The position numbers and the translations under genes were made by a program. From Stenopsyche tienmushanensis (taxonomy: Eukaryota > Arthropoda > Insecta > Trichoptera > Stenopsychidae), in assembly GCA_008973525.1 (NCBI GenBank), contig WACJ01000106.1, positions 248,001 through 312,000 of the forward strand: a stretch of DNA of 64,000 bases. The letters are read 5' to 3'. This document shows positions 12,086-63,344 of this stretch, piece by piece. How positions within the stretch are numbered: the stretch's first letter is position 1; every line of letters starts with the position of its first letter. Below the pieces are notes generated by a model, which saw only the letters and a program-made list of their open reading frames with translations, had not been told where the DNA came from and did not search any database.

Positions 12086-13430
12086 ATGAAGCCTCCTATG
12101 TGCTAAATCCATTATTGACTGAACGTTTTCTGCGACTTATAAGCATTATAAAAAACTGACATTTGACAGCTCAAACTAATTGTAATTGATAACATTTGGT
12201 CGGGTGATTCCTGTATATCAAAATTCTGAGTGTCAGAAATTATACCTCAAAATTCGGGATATTACATCAAGTCAAATTTATTTATTGAGTGTATTATATT
12301 GTAATATTGTCCCGATCGGGTTATCGTTGTAAGGAGCGCATTACCTGACTGGAATATAAAGTGCAGCTTACAAATATTCTAAGCTGGGATTACCCTCTTT
12401 GGGTAGGTAAAAGTGGGTTATTTTAAAGTTAGTTCATAACTTAGAAAAATTGATAAAACAAGTACGAAAATAGTACTCAATTTTGGAAATATTTATTTAA
12501 ATTATCGTAGAATAACAATATCTATCTCTTCTTGTGCGTACACCGCCTCCTTTGAGCCGATAGCCTTGACCATGGGAAGATATCCTTCCCACAAACCCAT
12601 AGCTGTAACTTCTCTCTCAGTAAATAAAACCTCTACTGCTCCACATTAAAAATCTATATTTTAATAAAATGTGTATGGATTTTACAATATTATATTTTAA
12701 CTTTGAGCAAACATTCATTTTAAAATCGTATGAAATATCCCAGTTGCAATTGTAACATGTTTGAAAATCATTGCGATTCGGTTCACTTATTGTAATTGTA
12801 TGCAGTCGGTATGGTCCATTACAGATCTACACGAGACGTAATCAAATAAAAATAGTAGACGACAACTTTTCCAGCTTTCTTCGTGTTTGCTTTCGATTGG
12901 AAATGCATTCGAACTTGCCTCGAAGAAAAATGTACGAAGCGACATATTGAAAAATTTATATCGAATGCAAATGAAAATAATGTTGAATACATTGAGATGT
13001 TCATATTGCCTTCAATAAAATTTCAATGAGCTCGATTTATTCAAATTTGCAATGTAGATTATATTGATTTCTATAAAAATTGCCATTGTGTAAATCGACT
13101 CGCCAGCCTACATTCGACTAAGATGGTCAACACACCCCAATAAGCCTTTATTGACAGAGGGGGTGTCCTTAGACAACCCCTGTTAGAATGACAAGAACAT
13201 TTCATTGTTTGCTTAGTACTCTCACGTGAGAAATTCAACACAATCAAACTGTTTACAGAGTCCAATCATGATTTAATCTAATTATAATACCTATATTATA
13301 ATACCCTATTAATCCTGAAATAACAATTTTCCCTAAATTATATACATTATCATATAGCCCAGCCATCTGGTCCAACGATATATTTTATCATCATTATCAT
13401 AATTTAATCATACAGACCCTATACAAGAAC
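12086..13430. other. Unassigned AT-rich DNA
   Basis: A weak family F trace (GCCTTGACCATGGGAAG-ATATCCTTCCC) sits at about 12,565-12,600. No coding exon was recognised in the remainder. Confidence 0.4.
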
Positions 13431-13740
13431 CTCGGCCATCAACAACGCATGCAGCCATTTCCGTATGTCCTGGGCCTCTCTTCAGTTGACCAAGTTCAAT
13501 TACTTGGTTTTCTATCAACAAGTTCGTATTTGAATCCCTTCAAAGAAGGATTGTTGAGGAGTTGTCTAAACAAAGCATAGAAAGAATTGCCTGGACTAAC
13601 AGATCGCTGAAATCAGAAGGAGCAACCCTCAAAAAAATTACAACTTAAGAGAACGTCTGCCATGCAAAGCTTGGCGTGGACGCTTCACCGTACATGTCCA
13701 TGTTTCAAGAGCTTGAGATCTCGTTCCGGAGATGACCAAA
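13431..13740 (-). mobile_element. Old, patchy RTE-clade LINE 3' remnant
   Basis: CTCGGCCA-CAACAACGCATGC and TGTCCTGGGCCTC match the 3' coding end of the intact RTE copy (26,030-26,075). The piece at 13,680-13,735 (GACGCTTCACCGTACATGTCCATG... GATCTCGTTCCGGA) matches 26,265-26,340. The central part is unrelated or too diverged to recognise. Confidence 0.55.
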
Positions 13741-15746: not shown

Positions 15747-18028
15747 CAGGGCCGTAACAAGGGGGTGGCAAAGCAGGCGCTCGCCACGGGCGCAACTGGA
15801 CTTGGGGCGCAAAACACAGAACCAATGAACCAATACTGATTAACTGACCGTTTTTATAATATATACTAAGTTATCTAATCCCTATTCTTCAAATACTAGT
15901 TTTATCAATATAACTTATAATCAGAATGTTTTTTTTTTTTTTTTAGATTATTAAGATATTTTTAATGATTTTGATCCAAAAAGTGACCATTTCCCGAAAG
16001 AAATCCATTTTTTTACATCCATGATTTTGATCCTAAACGTGACCCTTTCCCGAAGGAAATCCATTATTTTACGTCAATGATTTTGATCCTAAAAGTGACC
16101 ATTTCCCGAAAGAAATCCATTATTTTACGTCAATGATTTTGATCCTAAAAGTGACCCTTTCCCGAAAGAAATCCATTTTTTTACGTCCATGACTTTGATC
16201 CAAAAAGTGACCATTTCCCGAAAGAAATCCATTATTTTACGTCCATGACTTTGATCCTAAAAGTGACCCTTTCCCGAAAGAAATCCATTATTTTACGTCC
16301 ATGACTTTGATCCTAAAAGTGACCCTTTCCCGAAAGAAATCCATTTTTTTACGTCCATGACTTTGATCCAAAAAGTGACCATTTCCCGAAAGAAATCCAT
16401 TTTTTTACGTCCATGACTTTGATCCAAAAAGTGACCATTTCCCGAAAGAAATCCATTTTTTTACATCCATGATTTTGATCCTAAACGTGACCCTTTCCCG
16501 AAGGAAATCCATTATTTTACGTCAATGATTTTGATCCTAAAAGTGACCATTTCCCGAAAGAAATCCATTATTTTACGTCAATGATTTTGATCCTAAAAGT
16601 GACCCTTTCCCGAAAGAAATCCATTTTTTTACGTCCATGACTTTGATCCAAAAAGTGACCATTTCCCGAAAGAAATCCATTATTTTACGTCCATGACTTT
16701 GATCCTAAAAGTGACCCTTTCCCGAAAGAAATCCATTATTTTACGTCCATGACTTTGATCCTAAAAGTGACCCTTTCCCGAAAGAAATCCATTTTTTTAC
16801 GTCCATGACTTTGATCCAAAAAGTGACCATTTCCCGAAAGAAATCCATTTTTTTACGTCCATGACTTTGATCCAAAAAGTGACCATTTCCCGAAAGAAAT
16901 CCATTTTTTTACATCCATGATTTTGATCCTAAACGTGACCCTTTCCCGAAGGAAATCCATTATTTTACGTCAATGATTTTGATCCTAAAAGTGACCATTT
17001 CCCGAAAGAAATCCATTATTTTACGTCAATGATTTTGATCCTAAAAGTGACCCTTTCCCGAAAGAAATCCATTTTTTTACGTCCATGACTTTGATCCAAA
17101 AAGTGACCATTTCCCGAAAGAAATCCATTATTTTACGTCCATGACTTTGATCCTAAAAGTGACCCTTTCCCGAAAGAAATCCATTATTTTACGTCCATGA
17201 CTTTGATCCTAAAAGTGACCCTTTCCCGAAAGAAATCCATTTTTTTACGTCCATGACTTTGATCCAAAAAGTGACCATTTCCCGAAAGAAATCCATTTTT
17301 TTACGTCCATGACTTTGATCCAAAAAGTGACCATTTCCCGAAAGAAATCCATTTTTTTACGTCCATGATTTTGATCCTAAAAGTGACCATTTCCCGAAAG
17401 AAATCCATTTTTTTACGTCCATGATTTTGATCCAAAAAGTGACCATTTCCCGAAAGAAATCCATTTCTTTACGTCCATGACTTTGATCCAAAAAGTGACC
17501 ATTTCCCGAAAGAAATCCATTTTTTTACGTCCATGACTTTGATCCAAAAAGTGACCATTTCCCGAAAGAAATCCATTTTTTTACGTCCATGACTTTGATC
17601 CAAAAAGTGACCATTTCCCGAAAGAAATCCATTTTTTTACGTCCATGACTTTGATCCAAAAAGTGACCATTTCCCGAAAGAAATCCATTTTTTTACGTCC
17701 ATGGTTTTGATCCTAAAAGTGACCCTTTCCCGAAAGAAATCCATTTTTTTACGTCCATGATTTTAATTCTAAAAGTGACCATTTCCCGAAAGAAATCCAT
17801 TTTTTTACGTCCATGATTTTGATTCTAAAAGTGACCCTTTCCCGAAAGAAATCCATTTTTTACGTCCATGATTTTGATCCTAAAAGTGACCCTTTCCCGA
17901 AAGAAATCCATTTTTTTACGTCCATGATTTTGATTCTAAAAGTGACCCTTTCCCGAAAGAAATCCATTTTTTTACGTCCGTGATTTTGATCCTAAATTTT
18001 GATCCTTGATACACTAGTTACGGCCCTG
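15747..18028 (+). mobile_element. Non-autonomous hAT transposon filled with a minisatellite
   Basis: The element starts CAGGGCCGTAAC and ends with its exact complement GTTACGGCCCTG (12-bp terminal inverted repeats). It is flanked by a perfect 8-bp duplication. Its first 40 bases match a short related element at 27,453-27,614 (GGGGTGGC-AAGCAGGCGC-CGCCAC). No transposase frame is present. About 2.03 kb of the 2.28 kb is tandem repeat (15,965-17,997), so the array must have grown inside a once-short element or been carried in by it. Confidence 0.85.
15965..17997 (+). repeat. 56-bp minisatellite with 448-bp higher-order period
   Basis: About 36 monomers of 56 bp, typified by GTGACCCTTTCCCGAAAG, AAATCCATTTTTTTACGTCC and ATGATTTTGATCCTAAAA. 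Variants at fixed places (CATCC/CGTCC/CGTCAA; CCATTT/CCCTTT; AAACG/AAAAG) repeat every eight monomers. The rare ACATCC-AAACG monomer starts at 16,015, 16,463 and 16,911, exactly 448 bp apart, giving three higher-order copies that look identical by eye (16,015-17,358). Monomers from 17,359 on do not follow the pattern. Confidence 0.9.
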
Positions 18029-19853: not shown

Positions 19854-19859
19854 TTTATT
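19854..19859 (-). terminator. Polyadenylation signal overlapping the receptor stop codon
   Basis: The complement reads GAATAAAGA, in which the TAA stop (19,855-19,857) is also part of AATAAA. If used, the 3' UTR would be very short. No other strong candidate was noticed just downstream. Confidence 0.4.
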
Positions 19860-22800
19860 CTGCATGCTTCTGATAGACGGTCCTCAGCAGTGTGAAATAG
19901 GACCAGGCCGTACTCAAAATCTAAAAAATTAAAAATCACATCAAGAATTCTTCCGCCCTATCGACTTCTCATGAAATATCTTCGCCACTCACCGAAGTTA
20001 AAGTTGAGAGTGATATGGTGGTGAAGCCCATTGCAGATATAGTAAGAGGCTGAGCACCTCTGACCTGCAGCATCATAATTCCTTTGCAATGGTCTCTTCC
20101 AGTACCTATCCATTGACTTTCATAAGCTGCCCTGGCTACGCCGCTGCTCTATTTGTGAGATTTAGTTTTTTTAATATGCAATTTGATGTGATAAAATTTA
20201 ACAACCAACCTCTTCTATCAGCTTGTTCCCATACCACGACATCATCATAATTTGCGTCAGTGAAGATGAGAGAAAGAGCAGATATTTCACAATGCGCGCC
20301 GGCGGTGATATCTATTGACATTAATATGAATTAATTCAAGTGTGAACTTAAAGATAATGGCGGGATCTTTCTCGTTATTTTTCTTCATTATTATTATATA
20401 TACATGACCAAAGAAAAAGGATATTCTTCTACATTCACTTATAAGATAATAGGGATTTTACCGGACAAAATTTAGCTTTTGTAATTTAAAATATATATTT
20501 CAATACCGATTATATTACCTATAGATAATCCCACGATTGAGCGGTTGGACTAGTAACTCAATCATTTTGGGTTCAAATCTAAAGAAGGGTGTGGCGAAAA
20601 AAGTAGATGGTTGACCTTGGCTGCGGGAGGACGTCCTTTCCGCAGCCAGATCCATCTCTCTCGCGCTGAATATAAAGTTATCGTTTAACAGAGCAATTAA
20701 AAAAAACGACATTTTCATCCGGACACCTAATAACTCTTAATTATTTTATACTGTGAATCGAAAATATTATGGGACTGATATATCATTTTAAAAACATTAT
20801 TAAAACCGTCTATTTGACATAAATTGATATGTAATTCGACATGTTTTATTTATTACTAGCTGGTATTTGACGCGTTGCTGCCACATAAGTAATAATTCTC
20901 AAAATATCGTTTGATATTTGAAAGAGTTATCTAAGAGACAAGGCCGTACGAACTGACAAGACAAACAGCGCACTGTTCAATCAAGTAAGCAACCAAGCAT
21001 CTTGGAACAACGTTTTTGCATCAATTAATGTGATTCCGGATATGCTTTTATCCCCGAAAATGCCACAAAAAGCCCCTAAAAGACAAAAGCAGTGGCCGCA
21101 AGCTCCGTGTCCTACCGGTCCGATTTTCGGACCGCTAATTTGACCCATGAATTCTGTGTCCTTTTTAATTTAGGCTTATTTAATCAATACTGCATTGATT
21201 ATACAAAACAAATTATTTTATACTATACTAACCGTCGCTGAAAACATCAACAAACAAATCATCAACGAACTGAATAGCAGATTTAGCAACAAGACAAAGC
21301 TGAAAATGGCTTCCACTTCTCTGCACAATCTGAAAATTAAATTTAAATCAATTATATATAATATTAATAGTGATTTCAAAACATAATGATTTGTCTTACC
21401 GAATCAATTTCGTATGGAAACGAAATATCTTTTGCAGCTTCAGTTCTGGTTTCTTTGAACATCCGTTGTTTATCTTGACACAGTTAATTTTCAATATTTC
21501 GTTGCATAACATTTTGAAGTGCATGCATAAATATGCAACCATCAAGCAGAAGAAGCAATCGACGCTGGATACAGCGGACGTCGTGAAGATCCCTTTAAAA
21601 AATCGTCACCAGTCTTAGCACTTTTCTGCCATTCTTCAAAATAAAGCGACTTGAAATGTCATTAATTAGGCGAGAGTCGAGAAAAAAGCCAAAAGTCACT
21701 CAATATCTAAGAAAATACCCCCCAAAACGGGAAATTCTTTTTGCGATTCCCTCTTTTATACAGCGAACAAGCTCTCTTTGTGTAATTTTGTACATACATT
21801 TGCACTTAGTTGGATTGGTTAATCATTTATATTGAAGCATATATCATATTCTTTCTCGCATATTCCTCCTTTTCTCCTCTTTTTTTTTGTAATAGTTCGG
21901 GACCGCTCACCGCCATTCTTTCGGCCATATTTTCTTTATTTGATATTTGTTCGCACAAAAATAGATTGTCGTACAGGACGAAAGAAATAATCCATTAATA
22001 AGAAATATTACTTTGCTGAAACTATTTTTAAAAAGATGTTCGGTAACATCTCCTGTTGGGAGTTTTGTGACCCGTACAAAAACCACTTATAATATTTGAG
22101 TAGCCATTTTATAGCAATCGCATTATACAAGTATACAATCAACTGAGGCAATCAATTTTTGTGGGATTAATTTAAAATTAGAATTTAAACAATTTATTTC
22201 AGAGCGTTCGCATAGAAACATGATCAATGGACAGAAGACGAAACAAAATCAAAAAGATCCCCGAAAATGCCATTAAAAAACCCAAAAGAGTGGCCACAAG
22301 TCTGTGTGTTCAATCGGTCCGCTTTTCCGACCGCTGACATAACGCTATATGATGATATACAATTTAAAAAATATATTTTAAAAGATAGTTTCTTAACAAT
22401 AAAATGACATTCTGAGATAGCTTACCGGCATAGCACTGAGATAGATAAGTGATCGTATAGACGAGCGCCGATTCGTTCCACGAATATGGATACCAGATGT
22501 AATAGGGCAGCAGGAATATTTGATTGTTGTACTTCCAATACTGGACGGCCATCACAATCAATGGAAAGATGTTGTACACCATCGAAAGGACGTTCGTCAC
22601 GAGGGTATAGATCCAGAAGAATTTCTTGGTCGGGACCATGGATTCGTAGATGATTTTATCGATTTCTTCGTCGTGTTCGTTCGGCCACATCAGTCTTAAG
22701 TTCTCCACCAAGTCTCTTATCTTGTCTTTTTTCCAGACCATCGTGAACGATTTGAAGGCGGCCAGCGTGCTCACCAGGAAGCACGGCATCAGATCAGTGA

Positions 22801-23152
22801 TCTTCAGGTATCTATCGTAGGAGCTGATCTCGTCGTATATCAACGTGGTGAACTGGACGACCTCGCCGAAGACCAGCAGCAGCAGATGGACCAAACCGAC
22901 TGTATAGACTATCCTCTGGACGAGCAAGAACGTCTCCGTTCGCCTGAATTTCTTCAGATGGATCTCGCTCAATCCGAAGATTACGAAGGTGTTTTCGATG
23001 ACGACGAACATCTCATCGAACGTTATCATCTTTGGGCTCTCGTCAGAATTGTTTCCAAAATGGAACATTTCAACCCTTATGTAGACAGGGTCGATCATAA
23101 ATAATAAATTTCGATGACGGTCTCGAATATTCGTCCCCATAATTAACGGCAT
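19855..23152 (-). CDS. Odorant receptor (insect 7tm_6 family), intact, six coding exons
   Basis: This is a seven-transmembrane insect odorant receptor; in the family these form ligand-gated channels with the Orco coreceptor in the dendrites of olfactory neurons. Coding exons: 22,426-23,152; 21,400-21,592; 21,233-21,329; 20,210-20,311; 19,993-20,148; 19,855-19,920. All junctions are GT-AG and in phase, giving about 446 aa. Family marks are LPYYIWYPYSW and TYLSQ near residues 212-238, CFFCLMVAYLCMHF in exon 2, SWYGNKLIEE at the end of exon 4, and AMGFTTISL then AWSYFTLLRTVY at the C-terminus. The start is uncertain: in-frame ATGs at residues 1, 19 and 29 (23,068) are all possible. The last four exons match the neighbouring receptor at 25,230 almost exactly in length (97, 102, 156, 66 versus 60 nt), so the two arose by local duplication. 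Ligand unknown. Confidence 0.9.
20515..20690 (+). repeat. Family F, SINE-like copy with tRNA-like head
   Basis: The head contains GAGCGGTTGGACTAGTAACTC and GGGTTCAAATC, resembling the A and B boxes of a pol III promoter. It is followed by TTGACCTTGGCTGCGGG-AGGACGTCC-TTTCCGCAGCC (an inverted repeat) and TCTCTCGCGCTGAATA. It lies in an intron of the minus-strand receptor. Calling the family a tRNA-derived SINE is inference; no poly(A) or simple-repeat tail was confirmed. Confidence 0.45.
21036..21160 (-). mobile_element. R1-like LINE C-terminal fragment (family A)
   Basis: It contains CCCCGAAAATGCCA, AGTGGCCGCAAG and CCGGTCCGATTTTCGGACCGC, shared with copies at 22,255 and 44,119. It is in an intron of the minus-strand receptor, in the same orientation as the gene. 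Confidence 0.5.
22255..22345 (-). mobile_element. R1-like LINE C-terminal fragment (family A)
   Basis: It contains CCCCGAAAATGCCAT, AGAGTGGCCACAAGTC and CGGTCCGCTTTTCCGACCGCTGAC. It is within the receptor intron between exons 1 and 2. Confidence 0.5.
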
Positions 23153-24237: not shown

Positions 24238-24305
24238 TTAGATGGCGTCCGATCGCGAGACGTTCATTCGTCAAGTCAGCGATCCGAAAAGTGTGACATT
24301 TTCGG
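24238..24305 (+). mobile_element. R1-like LINE C-terminal fragment (family A)
   Basis: ATGGCGTCCGATCGCGAGACG and TCAGCGATCCGAAAAG are the sense-strand family A block (MASDRE.FIR..SDPKS). Confidence 0.5.
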
Positions 24306-24870: not shown

Positions 24871-25965
24871 TTCAATTCCCGTTCATCAATCAGGATAAAG
24901 TCTGGAAATCGTCTGAGTGCACCCGACAAAGTAGGAAAGTTTCACACTTTAACAATGTATTAATACTGCATTTTAATCCGATTCCAAAAAACAACCATAA
25001 CAGAACCACAAACAGACATTTGCCTATCATTTCATTAATAAGCAAGATTTAAATTGTTACATAGGATATCGAAGCATACGAACCACCTTGTGTTTATCAA
25101 AAACACTTTGTTCTATTATTCTTTTTATCTGCACGCTCTGCACACTGTCGAATAACTATATAAAGTCTTGCATTCGACATTAACTTGTCCCAGTCACATT
25201 TCAACGAATAGATCCCGAAACGTGCCAGGATGATCGAGAGCGAGCTGGAAATCGCAACTGACGACGAAGATGAAGACGTGGACGTACCTGACGTCAAATT
25301 TGAAGACGGTTTCCAAACCATCAATTTTTTTCTGACGTTTATGGGTCTTTGCGATGTATTCTATGAGAAATCAAATCGCAGCGTTCGATTTCTGTTGACA
25401 CAAAAGTAATCAACATCGCAATAAATTCGGTACTTGGTGTTTTTTATTTTTATTTAGCGATGTTTTTTTAGGTTGCTATTCTGCTATAATTATATCCAAA
25501 CAGCAATATTGCTGGTAGGAGAAGGTATCTTCTATTATTTGGCGGTTTCGAACTTTAACGTGGAAGGATTCTTCGCCATATCTGAGATGCTACCGTGCAC
25601 GCTCACCACGATCTTCGGTTTGACCTACGCCAATATGCTGCTGAACAACAAGAAGAAGCTGATAAAGATCGTCAAAACGCTGAAGCTCCTCTGGCCTAAC
25701 CAACAAAACAAAAAAGCGAAGAAACTCGTCGTCAAGAACTTGGTTCCGGCCAAGAAGTTCTGCATATTATACGTGGTTCTCATAAACGGACTGGCTTCCT
25801 TCTGGAGCATATTGCCAGTGATTGGAATTGGTTACAATCTAATCATGATCTATGTCTATGGTGCTGATAGAAAATGGAGTCATAATGTGACGCTTCCTTA
25901 TATCATTTGGTATCCTTATGATTATAAACAAAACTGGTGGACATATCTCTTGACGTATTTGAGCC

Positions 25966-25975
25966 AGGATATAGC
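25966..25975 (+). repeat. 10-bp target-site duplication, left copy
   Basis: AGGATATAGC is part of the receptor exon 2 coding sequence (Gln-Asp-Ile-Ala) and is repeated exactly at 27,301-27,310. Confidence 0.9.
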
Positions 25976-27300
25976 TTTTTACTTTTTTTACTTTTGGTGG
26001 CTCCTGCAGCCCTATAAGAGAGCCTCGGCCACCGACAACGCTTGCCGCCATTTTCGTCTGTCCTGGGCCTCCTCCCTCCAATTTCCCAGGCCCAGACGTG
26101 CGGCGTCTTTTCTGATCTGATCAGCCCAGCGTAGACGAGGTCTTCCGACGGGTCTACTGCCATTCGGCCCCGAATTCAAAATGGCTCGAGGGACTCTATT
26201 CGACGGCATCCGTGCCACATGGCCTGCCCATCGGAGCCGGCGGGTTCTGACGAAGCTTGTTATTGACGCTTCGCCATAAATGTCCATGACCTCACGATTT
26301 GACCTCATGACTTCGGTGCCAGAGGTCTCGTCCCGGAGGGGTCCGAAAATTTTTCTTAGTATTTTTCTCTCGAACCTCTCCAGGCGATTCGCGTCGCGGA
26401 TGGTCATGGTCCATGCTTCCCCGCCGTAAACCACTACCGGCCTTATTAGTGTTTTGTAAATTTTTATCTTTGTTCTCGCCGATAGTGATTTATTCCCCAG
26501 TATGCTTTTCAGGCCATGGTAGCACCGATTACCGTTTTGAATCCTGGAGGTTATTTCGTTGTTCATTGAATTCTTCTCCGTGAGGACGGATCCAAGGTAT
26601 TTGAACTCTTGGACCCTTTCAATATTTACACTACTACTACTCACGGAGGTGTAACCCCCAGGATTCACCCTCGATACCATCATATGTTTCGTTTTATCAT
26701 AGTTAATTTTCATGCCGAAATTAGCAGCAGCCCCGTCGATAGACGTAAGCGCCGCCAGAGCTTCCGATCTCGATTTAGCCACGACGTCGATGTCGTCAGC
26801 AAAGGCCAAATGCATCACATTATCACTCCATGGATCTGCGTGTCCCGATCTGCCAGTCTCCCTCATAATTGCCTCCAACGCAATATTAAAGAGTAATGGG
26901 GAGAGGGCATCCCCCTGTCTAACTCCCGTCGTTACCTCGAAAGGTTCGGACAGGGCACCGTTGGAGCGAACTACACTGACAGAACCGGACACACACATCT
27001 TCGACAGCCTCACCAGCTTACTCGGGATTCCCATCTCCAACATGGTCCTCCAAAGTTTTTCCCGGTTGACGCTGTCGTAGGCCTTGCAAAAATCAATAAA
27101 TATGTGGTGGAAATCAACACCGTATTCCCACATTTTTTCAGAGAATATTCGCACACTAAATAATTGGTCCACAGTGGACCTGCCCGGTCTGAAACCGCAT
27201 TGATACTCCCCGAGAAGTCCGTCCACGATGGGAGACAGCCGACCGATCAGAGCTCTTGCAAATAATTTATATCCAATATTCAAAAGGGATATGCCCCTGT
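25976..27300 (-). mobile_element. RTE-clade LINE, 5'-truncated, recent insertion
   Basis: The minus strand is a single open frame from the truncation point at 27,300 to the stop at 26,012-26,014. It starts at RGISLLN of the reverse-transcriptase domain and contains GVRQGDALSPLLFN and the catalytic AFADD. The C-terminal region ends DRRKWRQALSVAEALL. The 3' UTR is only about 36 nt and ends in an A-rich tail made of AAAGTAAAA-type units, typical of RTE elements. The endonuclease half is missing, as expected from incomplete reverse transcription. The open frame and perfect 10-bp duplications argue for youth. It lies antisense to the receptor gene. Confidence 0.92.
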
Positions 27301-27310
27301 AGGATATAGC
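27301..27310 (+). repeat. 10-bp target-site duplication, right copy
   Basis: AGGATATAGC is followed directly by AG and the intron donor GTTACT, so the displaced end of exon 2 and its splice donor lie here. Confidence 0.9.
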
Positions 27311-27452
27311 AGGTTACTCAATATTATATATATTACAATACCCATTATATTTCTTGTTGAATGTCCTCCTTGTCCTTCTATATGGTATCACTACTCTCCA
27401 TAGCTTATTTTCAATATGTCTTTCTTCAACGTGTATTTTCCTTGCATAATAG

Positions 27453-27614
27453 CAGAGCCGTAACATAGGGGTGGCGAAGCAGGCGCCCGCCACTGCGTTC
27501 ATACACATCCAGGTATGGCATCCAATCACGAGGCGCTCATTCGTCGTGTCAGCGATCCAAAAAGCGGACTGGTGGACCTTGCCACAGGCGCTTCATACCC
27601 TCGTTACGGCTCTA
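27453..27614 (+). mobile_element. Short hAT element (MITE) carrying a LINE fragment
   Basis: It starts CAGAGCCGTAAC and ends with the near complement GTTACGGCTCTA. It is flanked by CATAATAG (27,445-27,452) and CATAACAG (27,615-27,622), an 8-bp duplication with one mismatch. The left 40 bp match the large hAT at 15,747. Its middle (about 27,505-27,585) is the sense family A LINE block (GGCATCCAATCACGAGGCGC, TCAGCGATCC-AAAAGCGGAC). It sits in intron 2 of the plus-strand receptor. Confidence 0.75.
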
Positions 27615-28630
27615 CATAACAGTGTTTTTATGTTCTTTAAAATGACTTAATTTATAGGAAAACATTATCCATGTGTATTTTCTTATTTTAGGTATATTTG
27701 TCGTCACTGTGGGAGCAAGCGGAGATTGCTTCTTCTGTTTTGTCCTATCTCATCTTTGTATGCATTTCCAATTGATGCAGCAAGATATTCGAATGTTGAA
27801 CATGTCGAAGATAAACTCAGATGACGCAGACATGGATACGGAAGCATCCTTTAGGAAAATAATAAAAAGACACGTTATACTTTTAGCGTAAGAAGGATAA
27901 ATCACATTTGAAAAATTGTTTCAACTACTAACAAATTAAATGCGAAATTAAATTTGTAGATTAGTTGATGATCTGCAAGAAGTTTACTCTTGGAATCTGC
28001 TTGCAAAATTATTGTGCAGCTCCTTCTTGATATGTCTTCAATTATTTTGCGTGATCGTAAGAACTTTTCGGTCAAATATTTCAATCCATAGTTGTTAGAT
28101 TCAATGTTTTTTCGCCGTTGTAGATTTCGCCCTCAACTCAAGCGTTCAAATATATGCTCTTCGTCATCGTTGTCGTCACTGAAATGGCTCTAAAATGCAC
28201 TTATGGCAATTCGCTCAAAGAAGAAGTAAGTTTATTATTAATCGGTTGACATGTTACACCCCTGGATATTAATGTTTGTTCAATTTTATGGACAAGAGCG
28301 AAGCATTGGTGTTTGCTGCATACAGTTCCGGCTGGGTGAGCGGACCTAAGAGCCTCAAAAACGGCATACTGATGCTCCAAATGCGAGCTTCAAAACCGGC
28401 CGTCATCACGGCTATGGGATTCACGACGATATCGATGGACACATTTTCCGCTGTAAGAGACGCTCTAATTCGAACGAAATTATCGCAGCGCCATCTTTTG
28501 GCGGACGGTGCTAATTAAGCGCTATAAAAACAAGATGGCGGATGATAAATTCAATATTGTTTATTTTCAGATTTTAAGCAATTCCTGGTCGTATTTCACG
28601 CTTCTGCGCAATATGTACGGAGAAGATTGA

Positions 28631-29154: not shown

Positions 29155-29245
29155 AAGAGCGAGGTGGCTCATAGATGGCGCACGGGTCTTCCGACGAGTC
29201 TGCTGCCACTCGGTCCCGAATATATATCGGCTCAATAAACTCTAT
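29155..29245 (-). mobile_element. RTE-clade LINE remnant
   Basis: GGTCTTCCGACGAGTCTGCTG and CCACTCGGTCCCGAAT match 26,137-26,170 of the intact RTE copy (GGTCTTCCGACGGGTCTACTG, CATTCGGCCCCGAATT). Confidence 0.6.
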
Positions 29246-29869
29246 GCGCCAAATATACCGGTATCAAAATATATTATAAGTACTCTACAAAAGATATATA
29301 AGTAATATTTTGTTTGCAAACCAGCGTCTGAACAATACTCATAAAATATATATTTTACTATAAGATGCATTATAAAATGGTAGTTATTTAATATTACATT
29401 TTTATTCTTGCGTCGACATATATATTGTCATTTATATTGTCGTATATATATAATTTATTTATCTAACGTCAAATATTAATTCAGTTCTGTTCTCTACGAG
29501 AAAAGCAAATTGTAAGAATCGAATCATCCTTTATTCTCAATATAAAAGTTTTTAGATTAATGTGGTAAGTTTCACATAAGTGCAGATAGATCTAAAAGGC
29601 CCGAAGCTTCTTTGAAAACTTTTGTGGAATTCTCCACGTTATCACAGACAATTTTCGCAAATTCGTCCAGGAAAAAATATCATTTTTAATACAGACATTC
29701 ATATCGCTACGCATGAAAATTTTAATATACTGCATAATCAGCTCTTTTAAATAATCACATTTATGTAATATTATATTAACTTGCACCGCAAAGGATTTCT
29801 TATATATATATTATATAATATGGAAAAGTATTGTGAATCTAATCTTCATTAGCACGGCATTAACATAAT

Positions 29870-30284: not shown

Positions 30285-30505
30285 GGATGGCCACAAAATT
30301 TCCGTGTCCAACTGGTCCGAATTTCGGATCACTGACACAACAAAGGAACACCTCGTGATTGAACTCCATGCCTGAACATATCCACGGAACATGGTCTGTG
30401 TCCATGAACGGATCTCCGCATGGACACTCCGAAGTTGTTAAAAGCCCAAAACTAACAATCACAGCCCTAAATCGCCCGTGTCCTGTGAGGAACCGAGACG
30501 TCCAG
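30285..30505 (-). mobile_element. R1/I-type LINE C-terminal end (family A, best copy)
   Basis: The minus strand reads HWTSRFLTGHGRFRAV, then FGLLTTSECPCGDPFMDTDH-VPWIC, then CVSDPKFGPVGHGNFVA. The pattern LTGHG..., C-x-C-G, D-x-x-H...C is the cysteine/histidine tail after the reverse transcriptase in R1/I-type LINEs. This identifies the many GATCCGAAAAGCGGACCG-type fragments in the window. Clade assignment is by eye. Confidence 0.6.
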
Positions 30506-32544: not shown

Positions 32545-32640
32545 TGGAATACCTCGGCTGGGATAAATAGGTAGACATAGACGCCGCACGTCTCAGCCTG
32601 GACAATTGGAAGGATAAGGCTCAGGATAGACGGTAATGAC
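32545..32640 (+). mobile_element. RTE-clade LINE C-terminal remnant
   Basis: The plus strand reads DAARLSLDNWKDKAQDRR followed by a stop; the intact copy has DAARLGLGNWREEAQDRR at the same place. Upstream similarity continues only in a broken frame (PRLG... for PRLRW). Confidence 0.6.
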
Positions 32641-33042
32641 GACACGCATTATCGTCGGCCGGGTCTCTCTTGGTAAAGGACTGTGTAGGTGATTATGTAA
32701 GTATGTATTTAAATATAGCACAACTAAAACATATTTAAAAAATCAACCGACTCGTTCAAACATAGATTTGTTGCAAAAAAGCATCCGCGAGAATGTGTTA
32801 TGCCACAGCCCATTTTTAATTTTTTTGATAATCAAGACAAAATGCATCTTAAAATACGTTTTTTGTCGACGTCAACATTTAACGTGTGAAACATAATTTC
32901 GTTAAATGCTGGCGGCGTTGCTTAAAAACGATCAATAGCTCCTAAAACAATTTTTAAAATAATCATAATTATATATATATATATTAAACATTATCTTTTA
33001 CAAATCATAATTTTCAAAATCAATCAAAGGCGTTAGTATAAC

Positions 33043-36000
33043 TTAATAAACTTCTTCGTCTTCGTCCATTGCAAAATCTACTCCAGAATCTGCAGCGTAT
33101 ATCGGACTAAAATCATAAAGAAAAATACAACATCAATTAATATCGTCAGACTATAAATACATTACAATGAAATTGTATATTGTCATGCGCGCATCGGTGC
33201 GCATGACAATATACAATTATCTAAAACTATCCCTATACCATAAATAAAAAGCATAATTCATTTCGGCTTCTTTGTTTCATGATACACATTGGCAACTGGG
33301 TCTGTGGGGAGGACGCCCTCTGCTCATGGGGTTATTTAACCGCGTTTGAGGAGGACGGCCGTAATATTTCCCATCCATAAGGGGAATATGCTGCTGTGCT
33401 CCAACTATAGGGACATATCCCTTTTAAATATATACCGGATTGGTCAGCATTATTCGTTCCAATGGCGCCCTATTCTATTGTTGCCTTTTGAGGTGACGAC
33501 TGGAGTAAGACGGGAACGCCCTCTCCCTGATTCTCTTTAATATTGCGTTGGAAGTAATTATGAGGGAAGCTGGCAGAAAGTAGTCGGTGTAAAGCAATTA
33601 TGACATCAACGACTTCATCGATTTTAAATTTGCTCACTAACGAAAAGGTTAAGCAATCCATTTATCTCAAAATATAATTGCAGAATGATTTACTGATTTA
33701 GCCACAAATTCATATCTAAGAAAAATTATGTAGTTCACAACAGTTGTCCCGAAATCATTTAAAACATTATATTAACCTTTTACACTAAACTTTCTATTTA
33801 TCAGAAAATTTTGTAAACAAACCTATTCATATTTTATTTAAAAAATGACTACAATGTTTGATATGTAATAGACAAAAAAATAACAACTCTAAAATCTAAT
33901 CAAACAATTCATAACATAATCTTGTATCATAAGTAAAATTGTGCACAAATACATTCAAGATGATTAATTAATTCAGTGATACTTAACGGCAAGAAAACAA
34001 AATTTGATAGGTACTAAAACAAACATTTCACTAAAGATTGTTATCCGCTTATATTTTATATCAGCTCAATCAAAAGACAGATATAATTCCACATTCCTTT
34101 GCAAAAAACATTGTATTTTTCCAATCATATGATTAAACTTAAGAACACATTTAGCATACATCTTAACAATTGATAATAAAAGTGCTTATATAAACGCTCG
34201 ACAAAACAATATATAGAAAACATACGAGAAGAATACTCACTTTATGGCTCTACATGTAAAAAAAACAATGCGTTTGAGCTTCTTGTTGTATAGAAAGTAA
34301 TTAAACGACCACAAGCAACCGGGTTCCCCGAAGGGATCGGACGCCAAGTCGAGATTATAACTATATATATCGCATTCCGTCATCCCAATTTCATCGTCAA
34401 TGGCCGCCCAGAGCGCCCCGCGTAACACTCTATACTGCTCTCCGGCAACGGCACTCAAGTTGCCATCGACCTGTTGCATTACCCACTGTAGGGAAGGCTC
34501 TTTACTAAATTCATGACTCTGAAAATGAAATATTCAATGATTAATCTTCTGAAAACAATTTAAAACATGCCTCAAAATATCATTTCAGCATTTTAAACCA
34601 CAATCCCGTAAAAAAATTCTGTCTTCCACCGCTCTTTTAACCCTTCCTTTACTATGGTGTATTTACTACACAAAATCGAGTTGTAGTAAAGTTGTAATCA
34701 TTTTTACAACACTACTACATTGAATCTCGATATAATATCTATATCGATATGTATACTATCTGTATTGATGTATATATTATCAAATATCGATATGAAATAT
34801 AATGAATACGGGGTTTTAGAATTCGTAAGAGATCGTAAGAGAAAGGTTAATCCCACGAGAAACGCTACGCAGAGTTTCCAAGTGCTCACCCCTTTCACTC
34901 TGCACCCTCCAAGGAAGGCCATATGCACCCGGAGGTGCATTGGGGAAGGAAGAAAATATGTTAAGCTAAATTCAAGAGCTATCACACGAGATCAATGCCA
35001 CCATGAGTCCAACCTCAGTTTGAAGGGGGCTGCAGCAGAGGACAAAAATTAGCTTTGTAGAAATGGGTGCAAAATTTTGCTCGCTCGCATCCTCGACGCC
35101 CTCATAGAAATAACTCTCTTGAATTTGAAATAAGTTCTACAATAATAAAAAATAAATAAGCATACCTTTGCATTTGAAAAATCATAATCGTGAAATGCAG
35201 AGTTCAGTGTTGCTTTCAAATAAAACAACGTCTTCCTTGATATAGTGTCACATAGCATCCCTCCCTCATCGCCAGATAAACTCCGACTAAAATAAAACAT
35301 ATATTCTAATTAAAATACGTATAAAAATAAGTCTAAATAATAGAGTATTAATGAGCATAGCCTTAAATAATAATTTCAATATGAATATCCGTAGCTTTCT
35401 ACTTGTTAAAGTGTGTCACATATATCGTCGACTCAATAGGTCAGAAACCAATATAAACGCAATGAATTCCATAACTATAAATTGCCAAAATTAAACCCTA
35501 TGCGATATGCATATCTATGTGTAAATTAACGGTGAGTGGTTTTCTTTGATGAGCGAGTAATCAGATTCTCAGAAATAACACAAACACTACCATTGTGACC
35601 AAATTTGGTCACAAATTTAACTTATAATGATATCATTTTGATTCTCAGAATAACTGTCGAGATTCAATTTTCCATTCTTTAAACCACTTATGAAATGATA
35701 ACTCAAATGATCTTTTAACTATTCTTATCGACGCAAACAAATGTATTTGGGTTAGATAAAACGGAACAATATAAGTGCGTCAACGTGCACATCCTCTTGA
35801 TTCGTAAATTATTATGCAATTCTTAATTAATAACCGATGAGCATTGTAAATTCTACAAAAGCTCATACGAGCCAAGCTATTTCGCTCGAAACGATCACAA
35901 CACAATGGCGCATTAAAAATATTACATTCGTCTAAGAAACCATTGAATTTGCCGCAATAACGATTGGTGAATGCTCTATTGTTGAATTTGTTTATATTAT

Positions 36001-38975: not shown

Positions 38976-38981
38976 ATTGCG

Positions 38982-41900
38982 ATGGCCGACCTTAATACCT
39001 ATCTTAAATTCGCACGCATGGCGATCGATTCAAAGGACTATCCGATGGCTATACAAAACTGCAAGGAAGTATTGAAGAAGCAGAAGAACAACTACATGGC
39101 CCTCGTTATGTTGGGCGTTGCACTTCAAGACGATAGCAATGCCGTGGTCGCTTTCGAGAAAGCCATCAGAGTCAAAGAAAAAAATATTTTAGCGTATCAA
39201 GGACTGCTCAAATATTACCAGCGGATAAACGACGAAGAAAAACTTGTCGCCGTCTATTTACGAATACTTACATTAGACGATGTCAATATTGACGAGATTT
39301 GCGTCGAATTATTCAACGCTTCTTTAAATATTAAAAGCTCGAAGACATTAGCTAAGGTGCTTTTAACGCGATTGACCGACGAAACCAATGAAAATAAAAG
39401 AAACGTAATCTGCAGTTATCTTTCGAAGAGTTTAACGGACGTCGATAATTCATGCGACGAAGAAATATTGTCGATATACGAGAATGCGATGAAAGTATGC
39501 AATCCGACACAATTGAATGATGCGCTTATTAAGAAATATTTACAATGTATCATCCGATGCCGGGGATACGAAGATCTTTTTAAAACCGTTTGGGAAGTTC
39601 TCTCGTTGTATTGTTCGATACCGTTGAGCGATTGGATCTGTAAGATTTTTACGGAGGCGTACGTTTTCAACGGAAAATTTAATCCGGACTCGGCCAAATT
39701 GAATAATTTAGCCGAGAAACTGTTATTGGTTGCGCCCACTTCTCTCAATGCGCATTTTACGAAGGCGATAATACAGTTCATCGATGATAACATATTTGAA
39801 GCGTATCGTATGTCCGCGTGCATCATGAATAATTATAATAAGGATCATATCTTTTTTTTGTTTTTGGGACGTTGCTGTCTTACTCTTCAGCGTTGGATCG
39901 AAGCGGAAAATATTATCAGACCGTTGATGAATAACAAAGATGAAACATACGCGTTATGCGCCAAATTGATGTTGATTACGTCGCTAGCGTCTCAGAACGA
40001 TCCTATTAAATATACGGAAGGCGTAAATTTAAGCAAAACCGTCCCGTATAAATACTTCGGAGAGAGCCAATATATCAGTCTATTTCACGCTTACATCAAT
40101 CTTCAATTGTTCGTGCCCGCCGATGGTTGTTTAGAGAATTTGCAATATTCGGCTAGTTATCCGTCGTTGAAAGCTATGCTTCTTACGGCACTCGGCCGAC
40201 AATCGGAAGCGTTTGCCTTGTTATTGAGCAATAATGATCCGGAATCCTTAATCGAATTGGGTCGATTTTATATTGATAAATCGGATTATAAAAATGCTTT
40301 TAAACCGTTCTTAAATGCTGCGAAAGAAAGTCCGTATAATTACAACGTGTTTTTATGCCTGGGTGACTTTTATGTCTTATCCGAAAGCAATTATGAAAAA
40401 GCCAAGAAATGCTATCTTAAGGCGATGGAACTCAATCCGGAATGCATAGAAGCCGGTAAAAAATTAAGCAAAATCTATATGAAATTGAAAGATTGGGAAC
40501 CAAATTTGGCCCTCTTGAAAACGCTGACCAATTCCGTTATGTATTTAAACGAGAGCCGCTTTCAATGGGCATGGTTACAGCTCGGTCTTCATCATATCGC
40601 CGTGGAAGAATGGGATCATGCAGTCGTCAGTCTGCGTACGTACATCAGGATGAATGCGACGGACGTGAACGCTTGGGAGACTCTCGCCGACGCTTATTAC
40701 TTTCGGGGATCGTATACGTCCGCGTTGAAATGCTATAAAAAGGCAGTGGAAATCGAAAATACGAAGCGATACTGTCACGTTCAAATCGGAACCATACAGT
40801 GCATGCTCGGACAGCACGCTGACGCGTTGGAGACGTTTGAAAACATGTCCGATGATTATTTTTTGCCTTCGCTCAAAGGCTTGGCCGAAGTGAAACTCAC
40901 GATTGCGAATGATAATCTTTGTAGGAGTTTATATGGATTGTCTCGGGATAACGCGCAAGAAGCCATTGACATAATATCGCGAGCGATTTCGAAGGAAAGC
41001 CATTTGAATTGCCTTTGGATAATTCTGTATAATGCAATATCGACGGTAATTAAACTTCCGGCTGAATACAGTTGGCTATATTTTGATCCGAGCATCTCGT
41101 CTAATAATGAAAACGATAAAAAGAAGTTCTCCGGGAACGATCTGTATAATTTATCCATCGAATGCCTTTTTAAAGCGAAACAAAATTCCACCGCGTTCGA
41201 TGCCTACGTCTATCACGAATTGGCGAGCACTTATTATAATTATTACATTTATTCCGATAATTCTTCGTATGCTGAAAAAGCATATTCGGCGGTTGAAACG
41301 TGTTTAAAATCGGACGTTAAAAAATGGCAGCATTGGAATTTAATGGGTATTATTTGCGCGTCGAAAGCGTTAAATAAATATAGTATTGCGCAGCATTCGT
41401 TTATTAAGGGATTGGAATTGGATCCGTGTAATTCTATGCTTTGGAGTAATTTGGGCGTGTTTTATTCGATCATTGGAAACACGCTATATGCCAATATTGC
41501 TTTTAGAAAGGCTCAAGAATCAAATCCTACGTTTATTCAAAGCTGGATAGGTCAAGCGTTCATCGCTGAAATGTTAGATCACACCGATACTACCGATTTA
41601 TTCAGACACGCTTCACAATTAGGGTTCCACAAGGAAAGTAGCATGGGATACGGATATTGGGTTTCAAAAACAATCTGCGAAAACGAAGAAAAATATTCAA
41701 AATCGGCGTATTCGATACAAAATATGCACGCAATACCGGCCGCGTGTCATCTCATGGAATTTCACAGCAAGTACGAGAAAGATAACGCACTCAGTTGGAA
41801 TATATACGGGATCCTCCTCGAGAAACTGGAACGATACGACGACGCTATAAAAGCCTTCGAACAAGCTCTCGATAACGTCGAAATGAAATACAGAGACATC

Positions 41901-42803
41901 GTCCTGTTAAATCTGGGACGGACTTATACACGCGCCAAAAGATACGCATCCGCAATCGATATATTAAAGCTGATATCGGACATCAGTCTGGGATCCGCGT
42001 GCGAATTAGCCTTGGGTTATTTCAAAAACGAACAGTATAAAGAATCGTACACGACGTACAAGAAAGCGTTGAAATGGTTCGCTAAAAACACGGACGATAA
42101 AACGGACATCCTCATATCGCTGGCTTGCATTTCGCACAAATTCAATTCCAAGGAAAACGCCGAAATTCTTCTATTCCAATGCGTCGAAATGAACAAACAA
42201 AGACTACACAAAGACGGATTGCTCGCTCTCTGCGCGTTGAGTATGCTCTATTCCGAAAAAAGCATATCGGAGCTCGTCCTGTTTGAATTGAAACGTCTAC
42301 CGTACGATCATTCGAGCTCGTACATCCTATTATTCCTGGAGACGTATCTACTGTTCAATTATTACGGCGGCACTATTGCGGTACGGTTTTTAAGCAAACA
42401 GCTCAGGATATATCCGGCCAATCCGAATTTATGGGAGTTGCTGTCCAGGATACAAGATTTGGATTCGCGAGTGATTAATACGTGCGCTAAAAAAACGCTG
42501 TTCTTCGGCTCGGTCAAAGAATTCTTACCGTCGCTGAAATTGGCATGCGTTACCGATCTGCTCGTTGGGAATTTCGACGGTAGCAAACGATACGCGCAAC
42601 GAGCCATCGTTATGGATCCGAGAAATTCAGAAAATTGGTCGTTGCTCGTCGGCGTCTTATCAAGGATATGCAGGGACTGCGAAAATAGCGATAAGAAAAT
42701 CCAGCTGAAGACGATCATATCAAACGTCGTTAATAATTTCGATATAAGCGCGGATTTAAAAGAATGGTACGATAACGTGGATCGAGGCATCGTAGTACAT
42801 TAA
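38982..42803 (+). CDS. SKIC3 / TTC37, TPR scaffold of the Ski complex
   Basis: SKIC3 (TTC37, yeast Ski3) is the tetratricopeptide scaffold of the SKI complex, which feeds mRNA into the cytoplasmic exosome for 3'-5' decay and helps clear stalled ribosomes (family knowledge). The frame is uninterrupted for 1273 aa. The first helices (TYLKFARMAIDSKDYPMAIQ, NCKEVLKKQKNNYMALVMLG) and VVAFEKAIRVKEKNILAYQG are typical TTC37 N-terminal TPRs. Further TPR units appear at about residues 460-620 (e.g. YEKAKKCYLKAMELNPECIE; ALKCYKKAVEIE), 800-850 and 930-1020. It ends RAIVMDPRNSENWSLLVGVL and a short tail. The whole coding region lacks introns, whereas the vertebrate gene has dozens. A retrocopy is conceivable, but the intact frame and 5' UTR intron favour a functional gene. 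Confidence 0.9.
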   Translation: MADLNTYLKFARMAIDSKDYPMAIQNCKEVLKKQKNNYMALVMLGVALQDDSNAVVAFEKAIRVKEKNILAYQGLLKYYQRINDEEKLVAVYLRILTLDDVNIDEICVELFNASLNIKSSKTLAKVLLTRLTDETNENKRNVICSYLSKSLTDVDNSCDEEILSIYENAMKVCNPTQLNDALIKKYLQCIIRCRGYEDLFKTVWEVLSLYCSIPLSDWICKIFTEAYVFNGKFNPDSAKLNNLAEKLLLVAPTSLNAHFTKAIIQFIDDNIFEAYRMSACIMNNYNKDHIFFLFLGRCCLTLQRWIEAENIIRPLMNNKDETYALCAKLMLITSLASQNDPIKYTEGVNLSKTVPYKYFGESQYISLFHAYINLQLFVPADGCLENLQYSASYPSLKAMLLTALGRQSEAFALLLSNNDPESLIELGRFYIDKSDYKNAFKPFLNAAKESPYNYNVFLCLGDFYVLSESNYEKAKKCYLKAMELNPECIEAGKKLSKIYMKLKDWEPNLALLKTLTNSVMYLNESRFQWAWLQLGLHHIAVEEWDHAVVSLRTYIRMNATDVNAWETLADAYYFRGSYTSALKCYKKAVEIENTKRYCHVQIGTIQCMLGQHADALETFENMSDDYFLPSLKGLAEVKLTIANDNLCRSLYGLSRDNAQEAIDIISRAISKESHLNCLWIILYNAISTVIKLPAEYSWLYFDPSISSNNENDKKKFSGNDLYNLSIECLFKAKQNSTAFDAYVYHELASTYYNYYIYSDNSSYAEKAYSAVETCLKSDVKKWQHWNLMGIICASKALNKYSIAQHSFIKGLELDPCNSMLWSNLGVFYSIIGNTLYANIAFRKAQESNPTFIQSWIGQAFIAEMLDHTDTTDLFRHASQLGFHKESSMGYGYWVSKTICENEEKYSKSAYSIQNMHAIPAACHLMEFHSKYEKDNALSWNIYGILLEKLERYDDAIKAFEQALDNVEMKYRDIVLLNLGRTYTRAKRYASAIDILKLISDISLGSACELALGYFKNEQYKESYTTYKKALKWFAKNTDDKTDILISLACISHKFNSKENAEILLFQCVEMNKQRLHKDGLLALCALSMLYSEKSISELVLFELKRLPYDHSSSYILLFLETYLLFNYYGGTIAVRFLSKQLRIYPANPNLWELLSRIQDLDSRVINTCAKKTLFFGSVKEFLPSLKLACVTDLLVGNFDGSKRYAQRAIVMDPRNSENWSLLVGVLSRICRDCENSDKKIQLKTIISNVVNNFDISADLKEWYDNVDRGIVVH

Positions 42804-44849: not shown

Positions 44850-45020
44850 ACCGATTGTAAAATTTAAACAACCCACCCGATCAGTCTTCTTCGGTCAACT
44901 TCGTTTTGTAATCGTTCTGTAGACATGTTGAGGTATGGCATCCGATCGCGAGGCGCTTATTTGTCATGTCGGCGATCTGAAAAGCGGACCGGTTGGACAC
45001 GCAGACTTTTTGGCCACTCC
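44850..45020 (+). mobile_element. R1-like LINE fragment (family A), right arm of an inverted pair
   Basis: ACCCACCCGATCAGTCTTCTT, GTATGGCATCCGATCGCGAGG and GCGATCTGAAAAGCGGACCGG are present. It is the sense-strand partner of 44,125-44,300. Confidence 0.55.
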
Positions 45021-50224: not shown

Positions 50225-50405
50225 AACAATATTTTCGACCGATTTTAAAATTTAAGCAACCCACGCGATCAGTCTTCTTCGGATAACTTCATTTTGTAAT
50301 GAGAGTTCGTAATCATTCTGTAGACATGTTCGGGTATGGCGTTCGATCGTGAGGCGTTCATTCGTCATGTCAGCGATCCGAAAAGCGGACCAGTTGGACC
50401 TCCTC
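50225..50405 (+). mobile_element. R1-like LINE C-terminal fragment (family A)
   Basis: AGTCTTCTTCGGATAACTTC, GGGTATGGCGTTCGATCGTG, then the frame AFDREAFIRHVSDPKSGPVG. It is the best sense-strand reading of the post-cysteine tail. Confidence 0.6.
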
Positions 50406-52588: not shown

Positions 52589-55500
52589 ATGATGAGCCGT
52601 GAACTGAATAACTGCAACAGCAACGATAGTATTCCTAAACTGAAGAACACACACAAGCACTCGAGCCATTCTGAAAAATCAGCCGAATTCAAAATCAATT
52701 CCAACAAACTTATAGAGCAGAGACCGAGATCTACAGGATTCAAATCATTCCTTAATTGGTTTAAGAAAGTAGAAAACCTTCAGCGGCAAAAAGAAGAAGA
52801 AGAAGAAGAAAGCGATTCAGACTCTTCAGATTCGTCAGAAAAGGATAGCTCCAGTTCCAGCACAGCGACCGTAGCAAGCTTTGCATTTTTACCAGCAAAT
52901 AAATACAAGCCCTATGGCGAAGCTATACAACCAGAAAAGTTCTTCTCCCCCGGACCGTATACCGAGACTTATAATAGGCTAATTTTAGAAAGAAATAGAC
53001 GGAGAAGCATCGACAAAAATATAAGCCTCAGAAAGAAGTATAGTCTCTATTCCAGCGGTACCCTACCAACTCAGAACCATTTAAAAAATAGTCCAATTGC
53101 AGAAGCCAAACAACCTGATGTTAGTTCACTGTATGACACTTTTAGTTTGCCTTCCTTGAGCAAAATTAAAGCCAATGACCTGGAGCACTACAAAAATGAT
53201 AGAAAAACGGCTAGTCTGTCATCCCGTAACATAAAAACAGGAACGCACGTTAAAGGCAAAAGGAAAGCGCCACTTCCACCGATCACGCCAGATTTCATCA
53301 GATCCTACAGAAAAAAAGAAAGGCCCCACCGCCGCCGAAGACCACAGTAGGTGGACTCGAAAAAGAAGCAGTGGACAAAAAATCAGAGACAAAAACTTGC
53401 TCGTCTGCGGTCGCAGCAAATTCCAGCCCTAAAAAACAAGAACATCTAGAGAATAACATCAAAAAATCAAACATGCAAAGCAAAGAAATTCAGCCACCGA
53501 CCTTGGAAAACTCTCCAAAACCATGGTACAAACGCGAAAGCAAACAGAAACCCAAAAACACGACCAACGAAAATGCAAAAAAGAAAAACAAGCACGAATT
53601 CCCCGAAGTTGGATTCTTCAGATGCTCCCAACTATTTGAGAACATAAGGAACATGAACAGCGACAAAAGCGAGAGCGAATCGAAGAGCGAAAAGAGAATA
53701 TCGCGCTTCTTGCCCAACATCAGCGAATTGGACAGGGAAGCCGCAGAAATAATAAAACAGCACAAGTCCAGCCTGGAAAACGAACCCAATACAACGTTCT
53801 GGGTTAATAATCCGATAAACAATCCGTCTTCAGCCAAAGAACTGATATCTAAATTTAACGCTCTGGCAAATTCCAACGAGATTTCTAAAGCCCAATTAGC
53901 CCAACCAATTCAGATAAATAACAAAAACGAGATCAAACTCTCCAGTGAATTGATTATAGGCAAGAGCCCGAAAGATCCAAACAAAACAAACGAAGAAAAA
54001 GATAATAACCAAAATAACGTTGGCAAAACTAGTGTTAACGATGTGAGTAAAGATCCGTCCAAAAATGTTTCACAGGGAAATCCTACAAGTGAAAGCTCAC
54101 AAAATAAAATTCCAAAAGAAGGAGAAATATCTCAATCGTTCAAGGCTGAAATATTTTCAGCCCTTCCTGACTTGAAACCTTCTTCGTCTAAAATTATCAA
54201 CGTTGAAAAAATAACACCCAAAAGTCCCATATTGCTGTCTAAACTAAATGTAAACAATCAAAAGGTATTGGACATGGAAGACAAAGCCAGATTAAAAGAG
54301 ATGTTGATAGAGATGAAAAATTCACTTCCTAAACGTCCCAAGCCAATTCAATCCAGTCCGGAAAAGATTATAAAAAGCCCAGTCGTCGAGGAAACTATCG
54401 TTCAAGCTAGTTCCTCGTCGACTGAAAATGTAACAAACAACAAAATCGAAACCAAAACAGTCGAAGTAGTGCCAATTATGATAAACGTCACATCAAATGA
54501 ACTAAAACTGCCTCCCAATACAGATAAAAATCCTCCGGAAGACACCCCAATAAAAAAGTACATTCCTCCAGACATGCTAAAAATTTCACCCAAGCAACAA
54601 ACAAACAACGTAGCCAACGCAAACAAAGTAAACAGCTTCGCTCAGACCAATTGTGTTCTTCAAAAGATCGAACCGACCCCACCGACCGAAACAAATAACA
54701 CATCACTCGCTGATAGACCCAAATTGGAAACGTCAAAAAATGAAAACACATCCAACGCACTATATATGAACGTGGACGAAGCAAAAGCCGAGCAGAAACG
54801 AGAAGAAGACCGCATCAAAAGAGAAGCGGACGAAATGCTCTTCAAGAGCAACACAAATGTTCTATTGAAGAAATTAGAGCAAGCAATAGCCGAAGGCGAC
54901 GATATTGCTGCGGCTAATTTAGCCAAAGATTTGGCAATGTTGAAAGTTAACTGTCTGGTGACGTGCTCACCGTATGTTAATACGCAGGAACAAAACTGCC
55001 ACAGGTAAGTTTTAACATCAATATAAATCCGCATATAATCGATGCTTACATATTAATTGATATAACGTACGTTATAATATCATTTTTCAGGATAAAAATT
55101 TATATCGAAGACCAATTCTCTCATCAAGGACCGCTTCCGTTGCAAATCTTAGAGAGCACAACGATGGGACAATTAAAAGATAAAGTGGAAAAAGAGCTGA
55201 ACATTCCGATAGCTGCGCAGCGATGGATCATAGGGAAACAATTGGCCGCCGATGATAACGCACCGTTGACGCAATATAACAACAACGATTTTGACACGCC
55301 GCTGTTCTTATACGTAATCGCACTAGGTATTTATACATTAATGCCAAATTAATATTTAATTTAACGAGGGTAATTCAATTCCACCAAGTATTTGTGTGTC
55401 CGTATGAAACATGTATGCATGTAAATGTAATTTTTATCCCTCCCCCCCCCCCAAGGATCTGTATAAATGTAACTTTTTAATGAAAGCTTTGGCTCATCAA

Positions 55501-63158: not shown

Positions 63159-63258
63159 CCGATTCCAGAGTCTCTCTGCAAGATAAGAAGGGAGGGTCGT
63201 CAGTCGGGCTCGGCGGGCGTCGTCGCGTCCGACGTCCGCCGAGCCCGGGGGCACCGAC

Positions 63259-63340: not shown

Positions 63341-63344
63341 GTCG

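Follow-up and report, generated by a model that had tools for sequence, protein, structure and literature searches.

An odorant receptor gene of Stenopsyche tienmushanensis has very probably been inactivated by the insertion of an RTE-like LINE through target-primed reverse transcription. The gene lies on the plus strand of the 64-kb stretch of DNA analyzed here (the window), and the inserted element, a 1,325-bp copy at 25976..27300 on the minus strand, runs antisense to it. The insertion point falls inside receptor exon 2, two bases 5′ of the splice donor.

When the flanks of the element are joined and the repeat at its two ends is counted once, the receptor gene reads as seven in-phase exons (1,293 nt) that encode 430 amino acids plus a stop codon, with GT..AG at all six introns. 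Exon 1 (25230..25405, 176 nt) extends from the ATG to a phase-2 donor, GTAATC. Exon 2 is divided by the element into a pre-insertion part that includes the first copy of the duplication (25472..25975) and its last two bases, AG (27311..27312), which are followed by the native donor GTTACT at 27313. The remaining exons are exon 3 (27692..27887), exon 4 (27960..28056), exon 5 (28124..28225), exon 6 (28297..28452), and exon 7 with the stop codon (28571..28630). An earlier note on this DNA had claimed that removal of the element and one duplicate restores the exon to donor GTTACT and brings the later exons into phase in a protein of 430 residues, and the joined model reproduces this result. The same note had described the other receptor exons as undamaged, which agrees with a joined frame free of stop codons and with GT..AG at all introns.

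The 430-residue protein matches Pfam 7tm_6 (PF02949) with an E value of 3.7e-47 over profile positions 8 to 312 of 313, as well as OR28 of entry 8v3c, which we take to be a mosquito receptor, with an E value of 2.5e-28 over residues 66 to 426. In the protein-database search with the receptor, none of 4,395 candidates reached an E value of 0.001 or lower; because the Pfam and Protein Data Bank (PDB) matches are strong, we read this result as a limit of word-based searching in a fast-evolving family. A PDB search with exon 2 alone as the query found nothing. Donors and acceptors were scored with a generic matrix, which gives a rough scale, and on this scale two of the six receptor acceptors (27959 and 28296) score about 0, while both intron positions match those of a neighboring receptor gene. 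The exon 6 acceptor at 28285–28296 (TTTATGGACAAG) has almost no pyrimidine tract, and its intron position is exactly that of the neighbor.

This neighbor is an intact odorant receptor gene at 19855..23068 on the minus strand (six exons, 418 aa), which provides a control for the exon boundaries. It is open throughout, has GT..AG at its five introns, and matches 7tm_6 with an E value of 2e-55. The two genes are arranged head to head with their start codons 2.2 kb apart and share 35% identity (145 of 409 aligned residues), the broken receptor aligning with its neighbor to its end. All five introns of the neighbor share both alignment column and phase with introns of the broken gene, which has one extra intron of 66 bp (phase 2, after codon 59). 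At the critical donor, TYLSQCYAG followed by gtaagc in the neighbor corresponds to TYLSQDIAG followed by gttact in the broken gene. The shared intron position shows, with no recourse to the element itself, that 27312 is the last base of exon 2 and that the insertion point is two bases before the donor. The matching intron of the intact neighbor confirms that the proposed donor two bases after the insertion is real, and it speaks against an exon that normally ends upstream of 25966, the case that the earlier note had named as refuting its reading.

The neighbor also bears on the suggestion that the receptor was dead or redundant before the event and that the insertion was merely a passenger. 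Receptor families are known for rapid turnover, which would favor such a history, as would the presence of a related receptor gene 2.2 kb away and an exon 6 acceptor nearly without a pyrimidine tract. However, the joined frame is free of stop codons, aligns with the neighbor to its end, and has GT..AG at every intron, and a neighbor with only 35% identity would hardly be a substitute. We consider a passenger insertion improbable.

Other coding frames were also observed in the window. The plus-strand region 38976–42803 holds an uninterrupted frame of 1,275 amino acids with many tetratricopeptide repeats (TPRs), perhaps a single-exon gene, and a protein search with this frame returned four bacterial or metagenomic TPR proteins. 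At 53254–56489 on the plus strand, one frame contains a RING finger that passes its cut-off together with a sub-threshold RanBP-type zinc ribbon, and another frame has a LUBAC-tethering match that is also sub-threshold; together these frames may possibly represent a linear-ubiquitin ligase gene. A frame for a C2H2 zinc-finger protein of 563 amino acids lies at 61815–63506 on the minus strand.

The sequence AGGATATAGC is present as two exact copies in the window, at 25966..25975 and 27301..27310 on the plus strand, and its telling feature is that the pair coincides precisely with both ends of the element. The chance expectation is 0.06 matches, and two copies were seen in 0 of 100 shuffles. A full count across the whole window found two identical runs of at least 10 bases at the 1,335-bp spacing in 62,665 positions, the second of which (1846–1855/3181–3190) is unrelated to the insertion. 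With only two such runs, the chance of one at any particular breakpoint is low (about 1 in 60,000). At the outermost base of the duplication, five of six fetched relatives of the element read NYRG and the sixth reads NFRG; as this base could be element sequence, the target-site duplication is 9 or 10 bp long. The perfect 10-bp repeat that had been described at both element ends is borne out by the exact count, with a possible length of 9 bp. In the sense of the element, the flank reads TATTGTAATATATATAATATTGAGTAACCT and the duplication GCTATATCCT. A chimeric join during assembly that placed a LINE in the exon is scarcely credible as an explanation, since a perfect duplication that coincides with the element ends, together with the tail and truncation geometry, is a hallmark of real insertion and is unexpected from a misjoin. 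Moreover, the flanks join exactly.

The 3′ tail of the element, read in its sense direction, is AAAAGTAAAAAAAGTAAAAA at 25976–25995, and an open reverse-transcriptase (RT) frame with its stop codon occupies 26012..27292 on the minus strand (426 aa as searched). The minus-strand frame is open from 27313 to 26012 (433 aa) and begins in flank sequence. In Pfam, the element frame matches RVT_1 with an E value of 3.5e-36, the profile match beginning at position 12. The protein search produced 1,396 matches, of which the best 120 listed are 34 to 48% identical, and identity over the full query is at most 46% among these 120 of 1,396. The listed relatives, which carry no clade names, include proteins from insects, for example Periplaneta, and one record each named Pantoea (a bacterium) and Metarhizium (a fungus). 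Fourteen distinct PDB sequences were matched, the best being LINE-1 ORF2, R2, and other RTs, and the weaker ones being group II intron and retron-type RTs.

Relatives that span the first residues of the element (84 of 120) extend a median of 115 and a maximum of 318 residues further upstream; these figures are lower bounds because relatives were admitted only up to 1.75 times the query length. At the C terminus, 96 of the 107 spanning relatives end no more than eight residues from the stop of the element, whereas 11 run past it by 17 to 374 residues. As the relatives extend upstream and mostly coterminate downstream, the copy is 5′-truncated: judged by these alignments, it has lost its 5′ part, including any endonuclease and the start of the RT, while its 3′ end is most likely complete. 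The truncation implies a fragment incapable of moving on its own, and the copy was dead on arrival and is probably neutral. The fully open frame that the earlier note ascribed to the element holds for the part retained, which comprises the RT core to the C terminus only.

RVT_1 is the sole Pfam match in the element, with no match to RNase H. There is no CCHC knuckle after the RT, the last 60 or so residues of the translation containing no cysteines, and only 36 nt separate the stop codon from the element end. Members of the RTE clade typically have an RT without an RNase H domain and without a CCHC knuckle after it, as well as a very short 3′UTR and a short tandem-repeat tail, and the element fits an RTE-like LINE. 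An APE-type endonuclease 5′ of the RT is a further RTE trait, and the corresponding part of this copy has been lost by truncation. The portion of PMC13295347 drawn on here describes short-repeat tails in RTE elements and reports a Tn-TA insertion signature for Bov-B, legume, horse, and elephant RTE elements. A Tn-TA-like signature is absent at the insertion, the one copy examined, and this signature is not diagnostic for the RTE clade as a whole. The RTE label proposed earlier is in keeping with the lack of RNase H, the short 3′ end, and the A-rich repeat tail, but the Tn-TA signature is missing.

Short, diverged DNA fragments related to the element were found elsewhere in the window at 13417–13478, 29185–29248, 32579–32671, and 33435–33577 (E < 1e-8, 76 to 85% identical), along with two shorter matches at E 0.006. 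Translation of stretches around three of the related places gave no continuously open frame among the three in sense orientation, and the 3′-end stretches inspected for two of the window fragments (13360–13430 and 32655–32760) show no short-repeat tail. Repeats of other kinds were also observed: a tandem array of a 56-bp unit at 15965–17996 (about 36 copies, 95% matches) and a dispersed repeat of about 50 to 80 bp at 24242–24291, 27511–27577, 30306–30389 (minus strand), 44931–44998, and 50333–50401, in which the pairs compared are 75 to 92% alike. One copy of the dispersed repeat lies inside intron 2 of the broken receptor.

We propose that the event began with an odorant receptor gene at 25230–28630 that would have encoded 430 amino acids. 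The plus strand would have been nicked after ...GGATATAGC, two bases 5′ of the exon 2 donor, and target-primed reverse transcription of an RTE-like LINE mRNA would have started at its A-rich tail. An early stop in copying would then have left the 5′-truncated antisense copy of 1,325 bp together with a target-site duplication of 9 or 10 bp. The exon would thereafter have run into the element and reached a stop after codon 274, inactivating the receptor.

Read through the broken exon, the frame ends after 274 codons, the final 47 of which are element-derived. The break lies within the hydrophobic segment 217–251, which we assign to S4, and the receptor loses 203 residues, namely the remainder of S4 and S5–S7. 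In Orco structures, the anchor domain and the pore helix S7 both fall within S5–S7. A stop at this point, with the loss of these parts, points to a null allele or young pseudogene, which is by far the likeliest reading of the sequence. A gene predictor would probably call the broken receptor as two partial models.

Splicing around the element was considered as a source of normal protein, with the enumeration covering single GT–AG splices, each with GT as the donor and no more than one new intron. The 430 residues were restored neither by any GT joined directly to exon 3 nor by any pair of a GT (score of at least 0) and an AG inside exon 2 or the element. Open frames are left by seven direct GT-to-exon-3 joins, with products of 279 to 470 amino acids, and by 11 internal GT/AG pairs, with products of 279 to 471. 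The exonic donors at 25515 and 25525 have good scores and give products about 150 residues shorter, and skipping of exon 2 breaks the frame because of the intron phases. As no enumerated GT–AG splice yields 430 amino acids, we rejected the idea that splicing still supplies the normal protein.

One of these joins has a further bearing. The donor at 26098 spliced to exon 3 gives an open frame of 470 amino acids, the best in-frame product to retain the upstream part, and could represent an exonized element that lengthens S4 of the receptor by about 40 residues. However, this donor scores 2.0 bits, compared with 3.9 to 8.8 for the 11 real donors of both receptors on the generic matrix, and the extra residues would fall within helix S4. 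Exonization is highly improbable, and the model, the stop, and the lack of splice rescue support the claim that an odorant receptor gene whose frame is otherwise open has been disrupted by a LINE insertion with a target-site duplication.

No disabling change was found in the receptor (1,293 nt plus 12 splice sites) or in the element frame (1,284 nt), about 2.6 kb altogether. Neutral decay was simulated with 1,500 runs per setting and with assumed indel ratios. When indels were left out, the share of runs in which both sequences remained intact was 28% at 1% substitutions, 8% at 2%, and 3% at 3%. With indels at one-tenth of the substitution rate, both were intact in 18%, 4%, and 0.6% of runs at 0.5%, 1%, and 1.5% substitutions, and with indels at one-fifth of that rate, in 8% at 0.5% and 0.3% at 1%. 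Judged against this simulated decay, the absence of disabling changes probably places the insertion below about 1% neutral divergence; the most lenient view, in which indels are ignored, allows about 2.5%. The age is bounded at about 1 to 2.5% neutral divergence, but the description "very recent" is not itself established.

Youth does not by itself mean polymorphism. It is possible, although we think it unlikely, that the insertion is a presence/absence polymorphism and that a functional 430-residue allele still segregates in the species. The absence of any other lesion from about 2.6 kb in which decay would show is consistent with a segregating allele; however, a fixed insertion would also be expected to stay free of lesions until neutral divergence reached about 1%. 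In addition, the part of PMC4910016 used here reports Drosophila melanogaster nulls at frequencies of at least 10% in at least one population, in all chemosensory families. If the insertion is polymorphic, it would offer a ready-made natural knockout of one odorant receptor for a test of olfactory behavior, and if it segregates, the behavioral role of the receptor could be tested by comparing siblings, the allele being under selection. The locus presents a textbook-clean death of an odorant receptor, with one LINE insertion, a complete empty-site model, and no later decay seen.

LINE insertion with a target-site duplication is a standard gene-inactivating mechanism, and LINE-made pseudogenes are known. 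The present case is an ordinary LINE-made pseudogene: it shares with other gene inactivations by LINEs and target-primed reverse transcription the 5′ truncation, the A-rich 3′ tail, the short perfect duplication, and the position of the copy in an exon. It does not differ from them in kind, and the host gene and position alone are particular. Similarly, the element resembles RTE/Bov-B LINEs in lacking an RNase H match and in having a very short 3′ end, an A-rich short-repeat tail, and a short duplication. Compared with Bov-B and some other RTE elements (PMC13295347), however, the duplication here begins with G and there is no run of T about 10 nt upstream, and the tail is of the AAAAAAAGT type rather than (CAA)n.

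Known insect chemoreceptor nulls and pseudogenes resemble the present case in that a disrupting mutation has abolished an odorant receptor. Or74a, Or85a, and Or98b of Drosophila suzukii are reported as pseudogenized in the part of PMC6951304 seen here, and the corresponding part of PMC10542623 gives general background on receptor pseudogenes. The D. melanogaster nulls counted in the available part of PMC4910016 comprise CNVs, nonsense SNPs, and small frameshifts, whereas the lesion here is a LINE. Among the titles and abstract openings listed, our literature search gave no account of an odorant receptor exon interrupted by a LINE, and we do not claim that none exists; the part of PMC2826372 seen here has no bearing on the case. 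Because LINE-made pseudogenes and, from the part of PMC4910016 cited above, segregating chemoreceptor nulls are already known, the case leaves the general view unchanged.
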